Source: Methylocystis silviterrae (lineage in GTDB: Bacteria > Pseudomonadota > Alphaproteobacteria > Rhizobiales > Beijerinckiaceae). From it: 64,000 bases of DNA. Below are positions 22,486 to 25,538 of the stretch, one piece after another; the stretch's first letter is position 1; every line of letters begins with the position of its first letter. The notes beneath the pieces are model-generated. The model saw only the letters and a list, made by a program, of their open reading frames with translations, was not told the origin of the DNA and did not search any database. Where the stretch lies: NCBI RefSeq assembly GCF_013350005.1, contig NZ_JABVWW010000001.1, positions 310,001 to 374,000 on the forward strand, written 5' to 3'. Made by a program: the position numbers and the translations under genes.

Positions 22486-23478
22486 TTGCTATCGTTCGTC
22501 CGGGCTTTAGGGGAGGGTTGCGCCATTCGTTCGGATTCACGCCGACCTGCGTTGCGCGCGCGCCGCGCTGCGCATCCCGGGAGCGCGGCCGCGCCAGCGG
22601 TTCAGCAGACACTCGCACGAAGCTTCACATTAACCGGCCAGGGCGTGCATGGCGGTCGTCCCGCCAGGATGACGCTCGCGCCGGCCGGCGCTGACGTCGG
22701 GATCGTTTTCGGCGTCGCCGGAGCCGAGATCGAAGCGCATTGGTCGCGCGTCGACGCATCGACATTGCGCACACGGCTCGCCGGCGACGGCGCAAGCGTG
22801 TCGACGGTCGAGCATGTGATGGCCGCGCTCGCCGCGCTTCGCGTCGACAATGCGCTGGTTGTGCTCGACGGCGACGAGGTTCCAGCGATGGACGGCTCGG
22901 CCCGCGACTTCGTCTCGGCGATCGACGAAGCCGGCGTCGTCGCTCTATCCGCGCCGCGGCGCGCGCTGCGCGTCGTCAAGCCCGCGCGAGTATCCGACGG
23001 GGCCGGCTGGGCGGAGCTGCGGCCAGCGGAAGCCGGCCTTCGTTTGGATGTGGAAATCGCCTTCCCCTGTCCGATCGGACGCCAGCGCTTGGCGCTCGAT
23101 CTGACGCCCGAGACGTTTCGGCGCGAATTGGCCGGAGCTCGCAGTTTCGGATTCATGCGCGATGCGGAGCGGCTTTGGCGAGAAGGTCTGGCGCTTGGCG
23201 CCAATCTCGACAATACGCTGGTCTTTGACGCGCGCGGCGCGATCAATCCGCACGGGGAGCGATTCGCCGACGAATGCGTGCGTCACAAGATGCTCGACGT
23301 CGTCGGCGATCTGGCGCTGGCCGGGGCGCCGATCATAGGCGCCTTCCGCTCCTATCGCGGCGGGCATAGCCTTAATCTCGCGCTGCTCGAAGCTGCGGCG
23401 CGCGCGGGCGCCCTGGCGCTCGAACTCGACGCGCATAACGAAGGCAAGAGTGCGACAGGCCGAAGCCTATCGCCATAA
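22486..23478 (+). CDS. lpxC: UDP-3-O-acyl-N-acetylglucosamine deacetylase LpxC
   Basis: Zinc amidase that commits the pathway to lipid A. Recognised by FTLTGQGVHGGRPARMTL, STVEHVMAALAALRVDNALV (zinc His and general base Glu), MDGSARDFVSAI, ARSFGFMRDAE, and HKMLDVVGDLALAGAPIIG with the second His and Asp, then GGHSLN with the catalytic His. The N-terminus is unclear: no ATG lies before residue 50, so the start is a TTG or GTG. TTG at 22486 gives 330 residues; TTG at 22552 would give a length closer to the family. Its position after ftsZ is standard. Confidence 0.92.
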   Translation: MLSFVRALGEGCAIRSDSRRPALRARRAAHPGSAAAPAVQQTLARSFTLTGQGVHGGRPARMTLAPAGADVGIVFGVAGAEIEAHWSRVDASTLRTRLAGDGASVSTVEHVMAALAALRVDNALVVLDGDEVPAMDGSARDFVSAIDEAGVVALSAPRRALRVVKPARVSDGAGWAELRPAEAGLRLDVEIAFPCPIGRQRLALDLTPETFRRELAGARSFGFMRDAERLWREGLALGANLDNTLVFDARGAINPHGERFADECVRHKMLDVVGDLALAGAPIIGAFRSYRGGHSLNLALLEAAARAGALALELDAHNEGKSATGRSLSP

Positions 23479-23646
23479 TCTCGCCAGATGAAGGTTCTTC
23501 TTTCAGCCGACCGCAAAGGCGGGATCGGTGCGCCGCCGCGCCGTTAGGGGCAGGGCAGGGGCGTCCTGCGAGGGCGATTTGGCTGATTGAGCATAGAGGG
23601 CGCCGGGACCGCGCGAGCGTCGCGCAGCGCCGCAATGGGGCAACAC

Positions 23647-24546
23647 ATGTCGGTTTTCGCTCGTGCATTCAAAGTGTTGGCTTTGGCGTCAGCCTTGTCG
23701 ATAGGCGCGGCGCCGGCGCGCGCCGACCTCATGGACTCGATCACCAGCGGTTTCGGTCTCTTTGGCAGCGGCGGGACGAAATATCAGACGGAGATCACGC
23801 CCGATATTCCGGCCGAGGATCTCTATAACGCCGGTCTGGCGCGGCTGAAGGCCAAGGACTACGAGGGAGCAGCCAAGAAATTTGGCGAATTGGAAAAGCA
23901 ATATCCCTCATCGGACTGGGCCCGCAAAGGCCTGCTGATGACGACTTTCGCGCAGTACGAGCACCCCAAATATGACGACGCCGTGCAGTCGGCGATGCGT
24001 TATATCGGGCTTTATCCGAACTCCGCCGACACGCCCTATGTCTACTATCTCGCGGGCATGTCCTTCTATAGTCAGGTGCCGGACGTCATGCGCGATCAGC
24101 AGTCGGCGGAGAAGGCGCTGGAGGTTTTCACGCAGCTCATACAGAAATTTCCGAAGTCGGAATATGTGAACGACGCCAGATACAAAATCCAGGTGACGCG
24201 AGACCAACTCGCCGCCAAGGAGATGAACGTCGGGCGCTTCTATCTGCTTCGCAAGAATTACCCCGCCGCGATCAACCGTTTCCACGACGTTCTCGGCAAA
24301 TATCAGATGACCCGCCATACCGAAGAGGCGCTCTATCGCCTCACCGAAGCCTATCTCGCGATGGGCGTCACCAATGAAGCGCAGACGGCCGCCGCCATCC
24401 TGGGACATAATTACCCGGATTCGCAGTGGTATAAGGACGCTCACGCCTTGCTGAAGACTGACGGTCTCGAGCCGCACGAATACACGGATTCATGGCTTTC
24501 GAAGATCGGAAAGTCGCTCCACGCGAATCTGGCCGTCCTCCAATAA
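23647..24546 (+). CDS. bamD: Outer membrane assembly factor BamD (ComL family), without lipobox
   Basis: TPR-type periplasmic protein of the BAM complex, which inserts beta-barrel proteins. The 299-residue product has a signal peptide (MSVFARAFKVLALASALSIG, cut likely after ARA) and repeated TPR-like helices: LYNAGLARLKAKDYEGAAKK, YPNSADTPYVYYLAGMSFY, EKALEVFTQLIQKFPKSEYV, VGRFYLLRKNYPAAINRF, ALYRLTEAYLAMGV. BamD is normally a lipoprotein, but no Cys occurs anywhere in this protein, so it cannot be lipidated in the usual way. The ATG at 23647 is chosen for GGGG spacing and signal peptide; 23635 is possible. Its 3' end overlaps the convergent esterase gene by 57 bp. Confidence 0.88.
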   Translation: MSVFARAFKVLALASALSIGAAPARADLMDSITSGFGLFGSGGTKYQTEITPDIPAEDLYNAGLARLKAKDYEGAAKKFGELEKQYPSSDWARKGLLMTTFAQYEHPKYDDAVQSAMRYIGLYPNSADTPYVYYLAGMSFYSQVPDVMRDQQSAEKALEVFTQLIQKFPKSEYVNDARYKIQVTRDQLAAKEMNVGRFYLLRKNYPAAINRFHDVLGKYQMTRHTEEALYRLTEAYLAMGVTNEAQTAAAILGHNYPDSQWYKDAHALLKTDGLEPHEYTDSWLSKIGKSLHANLAVLQ

Positions 24547-25425
24547 TCGCGCCTGTATAAATGCGCCGGCATGCGTGAGCGCGCGCCGGCCGTCCTCAAG
24601 CCTTGCATTCCATAAATGCCACGCATGGATCATGCGCGGCCAGATCTCCAGCGTGACCGAGACGTCGGCGGCGCCGGCCGCAGCGGCGAGTCGCGTCGAA
24701 TCGGCGAGCAGCGTTTCGTTTGAGCCCACCTGAATCATGAGGGGCGGCAAGCCGCTCAGATCGCCAAACAGCGGCGAGACTCGGGGGTCACGGCGATCGA
24801 CTCCCGCCGGGACATAGGCCTGCGCGAGTTCCTCGAGATAGGCCTTATGCAGCAGCGGATCGACGTCGTCTTTCGTCGCCAGCGTTTCGCCAGAGAGGGT
24901 GAGATCGGTCCAAGGCGAGACAAGCCAGGTGCAGGCAGGGAGCGCTTCCTTGAGGTCGCGCAGCCGCATCAGCAAGGCAAGCGTCAGCCCGCCGCCGGCG
25001 CTGTCGCCGCCGACCGCGATTTGGCGCGCGGAAAACCCCTGTTCCCGAAGAAATCTCCAGGCCGCGAGCGCATCGTCATAGGCCGCTGGAAACGGATGCT
25101 CGGGCGCCAGTCTGAATTCGACGGCGAGCGCCCTGGCGCGCGCGGCGCGTCCGGCTTCCGTGGCCATGCGGCGGTGGCTGACGATCGAACCGGAGCAGTA
25201 GCCGCCGCCATGGAAGAACAGCAGCGCGCGCGAGGGGTCGCTCGTTGGCGCGCAAGACCATTCGCCGGCCATGCCGTCGATCGACGCGCGCTCCAACGAG
25301 ATATCCGCCGCGACCGGCCAAGCGGCGCCGACTTCCTCGATGCGGGCGCGCCGCGCCGGCCAGCCGACGGGTCGCGGTTTTGCGCTCAGCAGCGCGCGAA
25401 TATCTTCGATGTCGAGATCCGCCAC
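24490..25425 (-). CDS. Alpha/beta hydrolase, hormone-sensitive-lipase family esterase
   Basis: The 311-residue enzyme shows the HSL-family oxyanion motif FFHGGGYCSGS, EFRLAPEHPFPAAYDDALAAW, the nucleophile elbow GGDSAGGGL, and late Asp and His (VSPLF..., MIHAWHLW) of the catalytic triad. Such enzymes hydrolyse short-chain carboxylic esters; the natural substrate cannot be told. The GTG at 25425 is chosen because CGGAG lies 6 bases upstream and similarity begins there; the frame stays open to 25524. It is convergent with bamD and divergent from recN, so it is its own transcription unit. Confidence 0.85.
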   Translation of the reverse strand: MADLDIEDIRALLSAKPRPVGWPARRARIEEVGAAWPVAADISLERASIDGMAGEWSCAPTSDPSRALLFFHGGGYCSGSIVSHRRMATEAGRAARARALAVEFRLAPEHPFPAAYDDALAAWRFLREQGFSARQIAVGGDSAGGGLTLALLMRLRDLKEALPACTWLVSPWTDLTLSGETLATKDDVDPLLHKAYLEELAQAYVPAGVDRRDPRVSPLFGDLSGLPPLMIQVGSNETLLADSTRLAAAAGAADVSVTLEIWPRMIHAWHLWNARLEDGRRALTHAGAFIQARLLEDGQIRVERLSDLRKP

Positions 25426-25538
25426 GAAAAACTCCGTTTGGAAAAGGGCGCTGGCGACTATAATCGAGGGCCGTCCGCGCGTCGCCGACGCGCGGCTTCC
25501 GGCGCATCTGCGCGCCCAGGGCATTTGAGCAAAGCCTC

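Follow-up and report, generated by a model that had tools for sequence, protein, structure and literature searches.

The window, a stretch of 64,000 nucleotides from the genome of Methylocystis silviterrae, a species of a methane-oxidizing genus, carries a bamD gene at positions 23647..24546 (+). Its upstream neighbor is lpxC (22486..23478, +; named by recognition from the list of open reading frames), and further upstream lie two genes that we take, also by recognition, to be ftsA and ftsZ. On the minus strand, an open reading frame recognized as esterase-like (24490-25524, -) shares 57 bases with the 3' end of bamD. Beyond this frame is a gene that, by recognition, is presumably recN.

Translation of bamD yields a protein of 299 aa that scores 262.6 bits with the TIGR03302 BamD profile (cut-off 81.4) and 182.3 bits with PF13525 (cut-off 25). 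The AlphaFold model is a TPR stack with a mean pLDDT of 86.4, in which residues 6-37 fall below 50. Judged by the modeled helices, the TPR body spans about aa 56-270 (23812..24456, +). Among solved folds, BamD chains come closest to it: every one of the 27 best Foldseek matches is a BamD entry, a BamD chain of a BAM complex, or a BamA-BamD fusion, and BamD of Neisseria gonorrhoeae stands first. Identity to Escherichia coli BamD is 27% over 239 columns.

In the part of a published account that bears on it, R197 of E. coli BamD is an Arg at the interface with BamA POTRA5 (PMC6529637). The residue aligned with it, Arg211 (24277..24279, +), is invariant across 47 aligned sequences, and BamA of the source genome keeps a Glu at the position aligned with E373, the partner of this Arg in BamA. 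Both interface residues are thus kept. Family profiles, fold and interface Arg together establish the window protein as BamD. The kept interface also fits a lipoprotein, and it does not follow from the interface that docking alone suffices.

The initial annotation held that this BamD is without a lipidation Cys, and the translation of 23647-24546 (+) bears this out: there are zero Cys residues in the 299 aa, and hence no lipobox Cys of the kind found in outer-membrane lipoproteins. Upstream, the in-frame open reading frame extends to a TTG at 23587, and it is Cys-free there too, as far as the next stop. The protein begins with a predicted type I (Sec) signal peptide (aa 1-26; 23647..23724, +). 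A normal signal peptide ending in ARA before DL had been described, in agreement with the sequence, which reads MSVFARAFKVLALASALSIGAAPARA before the cleavage site and DLMDS after it (AAPARA/DLMDS). A basic n-region (MSVFARAFK) is followed by a hydrophobic h-region (VLALASALSIGAA) and by PARA before the Asp, with small residues at -3 and -1. The assignment to signal peptidase I (SPI) is based on the -3/-1 rule and on alignment. The mature N-terminal segment, DLMDSITSGFGLFGSGGTK (aa 27-45; 23725..23781, +), has low model confidence and no predicted secondary structure.

The source genome (64 contigs, ~100% complete by estimate) has a single match to PF13525. A search with the window protein itself returned one extra weak match (E 0.0035, 29% over 70 aa). 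The matching protein, of 329 aa and located on C21, was rejected as a second BamD and judged from its sequence to be CpoB/YbgF-like. Neither search found a second bamD, and a separate lipoprotein BamD encoded elsewhere in this genome is very improbable. The window protein, the sole BamD found in the genome, is predicted to be no longer a lipoprotein.

A search of the genus produced a bamD match in 38 of 39 genomes; the genome without a match (G023) is 66% complete. In all 38 readable genomes the mature junction is free of a lipobox Cys. In 34 of them bamD encodes no Cys anywhere ahead of the TPR body, counting from the start codon, and in the other four (L013, L103, L104, L106) a single Cys lies inside the signal peptide. 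Because all 38 genes are without the lipobox Cys, its absence in the window is not a sequencing error, an explanation that the initial annotation had wished to see excluded by comparing relatives at the signal peptide.

Among 111 further genomes of the family, sampled as GTDB Beijerinckiaceae, the lipobox Cys is present in 97, absent in 11, and atypical in three. The 11 lipobox-less genomes belong to Methylosinus (3/3), g33 (2/3), g35 (2/2), g40 (2/3), g17 (1/4) and Beijerinckia (1/2, Beijerinckia mobilis). In four of them (L058, L147, L158, L172) a Cys lies further up in the signal peptide, so that, with the four from the genus, eight of the 49 lipobox-less rows carry a signal-peptide Cys at one place or another. 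For three of the eight (L013, L147 and L158) this place is the hydrophobic stretch, where the Cys follows an Ala and stands a good way ahead of the xxA site. These three proteins may be lipidated in an unusual manner, which would leave the Cys-free window protein unaffected. The three atypical proteins come from g9 (2/6; L122 and L259) and g33 (1/3; L114). Their signals end in GFC or AFC, with the Cys near its usual place and preceded by Phe at -1, and they are possibly intermediates between a lipobox and an SPI site. A further metagenome-assembled genome (MAG), L088, which stands outside the tree described below, also has a BamD without the lipobox Cys.

Outside the family, the lipobox Cys is present in 140 of 140 sampled BamD proteins. 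One set comes from other families of the order: 70 genomes in 31 families were read, out of 282 that matched, and all 70 have the Cys. The second set, again 70 of 70, covers the remainder of the class (24 of 24 genomes) and of the phylum (46 of the 101 that matched). Each set is a non-random draw of the 30 best-scoring matches and 40 picked for spread. Labels were given by a regular expression that disregarded any Cys with a long run of hydrophobic residues and AxAD behind it; one protein of the order sample (L179), which reads ALGAC, was assigned to the lipobox class by hand. G095 (contig end) and G068 (partial match) were left out of the counts. Loss of the lipobox is conserved in Methylocystis and has recurred, and among the genomes sampled it stays within one family. 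What had been noticed as one odd protein is real, but it is in fact a lineage trait that has arisen several times in a single family.

In the alignment (A1), the predicted first mature residue of the window protein, Asp27 (GAC; 23725..23727, +), falls in the same column as the relatives' lipidated Cys or in the one beside it. At this junction the codons are GCC GAC in the window versus GGG TGC in g8. An xxA site is found in 48 of the 49 lipobox-less family members, where the next residue is Asp (44), Phe (3) or Ile (1); Ala occupies -1 in 48 of the 49 and -3 in 43. Within the genus, A-R-A or S-H-A precedes Asp in 37 of 38 members. Given these xxA sites, and an Asp aligned at or near the lipidated Cys, a predicted type I site has taken the place of the lipobox. 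One MAG assigned to Methylocystaceae (L027/L071) was counted as lipobox-less and is without an xxA site. It has an in-frame deletion of ~30 codons across the cleavage site of BamD, which is either real or an assembly error.

A BamD tree of 161 rows (149 from the family and 12 outgroup) was built from the TPR body only, with the columns of the trait itself excluded. It calls for at least six changes between the two states, or seven if the atypical rows are scored as lost; the count drops to five when B. mobilis (L147) is not counted and to four when all eight rows with a signal-peptide Cys are not counted. These numbers are approximate, because the tree follows a single gene, was computed by a fast method and leaves 46 forks open. 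The direction of change is likely to be loss of the Cys, because the outgroup rows have it. All clear losses fall within one clade of 82 rows, and both states are present inside three genera (g4, g17 and g40). In E. coli, an Asp directly after the lipidated Cys is associated with inner-membrane retention. Many genera of the family have an Asp at that place, directly after the lipobox Cys, and Ser is common there in the clade with the losses.

The lipoprotein pathway itself appears to be in place. LspA and LolA were found in the source genome, and a lipobox is present in BamE at all 55 loci read (30 of 39 genus matches, plus 25 further family genomes that include 10 of the 11 lipobox-less ones outside the genus; G109 has no BamE match). 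Pal likewise has a lipobox at 28 of 28 readable genus loci, 30 having been fetched, of which L345 and L348 were unreadable at the expected offset. A general loss of lipidation was therefore rejected. Among the proteins tested (BamE and Pal), the loss is specific to BamD.

We propose, with a probability of roughly 70%, that BamD of Methylocystis is cut by SPI, is soluble in the periplasm, and is recruited to the outer membrane through protein contacts. BamD would be exported by Sec and cut by signal peptidase I after ARA, which would free it into the periplasm in soluble form. It would then be recruited to POTRA5 of BamA by way of the conserved Arg211 and would dock also on BamE, which by sequence is still a lipoprotein. 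The conserved C-terminal amphipathic helix may add a contact with the membrane or with a partner. We infer the cleavage, periplasmic solubility, docking on the BAM complex and function of the window protein from its sequence features and from those of its relatives.

Alternatively, the non-lipidated protein might be held at the outer membrane by a peptide anchor of its own. The membrane would then be bound by the conserved amphipathic Trp helix at the C-terminus, possibly with help from the hydrophobic N-terminus of the mature protein. We regard this as unlikely. The C-terminal segment in question, WLSKIGKSLHANLAVL (24493..24540, +), follows a conserved Ser282 and is predicted to be a helix over aa 283-298, for which the AlphaFold block means are pLDDT 87 and 66. 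The segment DSWLSKIGKSL ranks 6th by hydrophobic moment among the 289 11-mers of the protein. When only full tails are considered, the motif SW[ILMV][SAT] occurs in 38 of 38 lipobox-less members, as an anchor would have it, but also in 3 of 3 atypical members and in 63 of 67 lipobox members. Because lipidated members carry the motif about as often, the helix is at most permissive and was rejected as a specific compensation; the motif may bind a protein partner instead. As a feature that was already there, the helix could make loss of the lipid tolerable.

The tail of BamD in B. mobilis (L094, 2779-4545) is ~260 aa longer than usual and rich in Pro and Ala. This lipobox-less protein has four W-rich tail segments (SWIARMFSKPW, NWFSKTF, NWFTKTF and NWLTKTW), whereas a Cys-bearing congener (L357) has two. 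The difference favors a peptide anchor, but it comes from just one pair of Beijerinckia species, and the lipobox-less one is among the species with a Cys within the hydrophobic stretch. In the source strain and some close relatives, bamD ends in SLHANLAVLQ (24514-24543 in the window); among 30 genus tails read, AVLQ is the end in five and HAI in 21.

The mature N-terminus does not strengthen the case for such an anchor. Its mean Wimley-White sum is 1.79 in the 49 lipobox-less members versus 4.82 in the 97 lipobox members, the values being unreliable for the three atypical rows, L038, L058 and L027, where segment borders are misplaced. Averaged over the lipobox-less members, the segment is thus friendlier to the interface, but the trend follows the clade, and within mixed-state genera its sign varies: g40 and g4 agree with it and g17 opposes it. 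A more hydrophobic N-terminus was for this reason rejected as a compensation.

Less probable again is an uncleaved signal peptide that anchors BamD in the inner membrane, from which it would span the periplasm. The N-terminus does include a hydrophobic stretch, and the MAG L027/L071, having lost the region of the cleavage site, would suit such an arrangement, but this is one MAG and its deletion may be an assembly error. The xxA site, present in all but one of the 49 lipobox-less members, argues for cleavage, and the linker of ~30 residues from that site to the TPR body would give an inner-membrane BamD little reach toward the outer membrane.

That the Cys-less gene is an artefact (a sequencing error, a wrong start codon, a pseudogene, or a cover for a second lipidated BamD elsewhere) is extremely improbable, as nothing in its support was found, the state is identical in all 38 readable Methylocystis genomes, the reading frame is open and Cys-free upstream, and a genome estimated as 100% complete has one bamD match only.

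A BamD that would be soluble in the periplasm and recruited through protein contacts is accordingly our preferred reading. The initial annotation had suggested a soluble or otherwise anchored BAM subunit; this is the best fit to the observations, with its functional half kept here as a prediction. A broader proposal, to which we would give rather less than an even chance, is that some Beijerinckiaceae have a BAM complex whose BamD is soluble and exchangeable, moving back and forth between BamA and the periplasm. This central subunit would then have shed its dependence on lipoprotein trafficking several times, a step made tolerable by the pre-existing C-terminal helix and by lipidated BamE.

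BamD is essential in E. coli. The window protein resembles BamD of E. coli and N. gonorrhoeae (YfiO/ComL) in its TPR fold, family scores, interface Arg for BamA, and presence as the one copy found, but differs from them in having a type I signal peptide and no lipobox Cys. Closer at hand are the lipobox-bearing BamD proteins of other genera of the family (among them g8, most of g17, G138 of g40, and G082 of Beijerinckia), which are products of the same gene, near-neighbors in the tree, and carriers of the SWIS motif, yet keep the lipobox Cys at the aligned position.

BamD is described as a lipoprotein in the relevant parts of reviews from 2008 (PMC2635482) and 2026 (PMC13067283). A 2012 survey of BAM lipoproteins across proteobacteria applied LipoP to representative BamD proteins, and the portion of it considered here mentions no Cys-less BamD (PMC3359395). 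In passages of a 2024 review, essential outer-membrane assembly is said to rely on lipoproteins in seemingly all Proteobacteria, and the question is posed why the lipid tether exists at all (PMC11784454). The same review relates that many lipoproteins work when made soluble and expressed from multicopy plasmids (PMC11784454). Such engineered proteins, in which the lipobox signal is swapped for that of a soluble periplasmic protein, often with function kept, are a further likeness to the window protein. However, they are multicopy laboratory constructs, and section 4 of that review names no BamD among them (PMC11784454), whereas the window protein is encoded by a chromosomal gene that has changed several times in nature. 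In the open-access literature, as judged by titles and the starts of abstracts, we recognized no report of a natural non-lipidated BamD; most subscription journals lie outside that scope.

The Cys-less BamD is real, and the functional question that it raises is easy to test. The family offers a natural test of whether the lipid anchor of BamD is needed, in that the site has been lost repeatedly in one family while BamE and Pal keep theirs. Genera that hold species both with and without the Cys provide matched pairs for direct tests. Moreover, BamD of the species without it should no longer need the Lol pathway, and these species can therefore reveal which needs for Lol remain.
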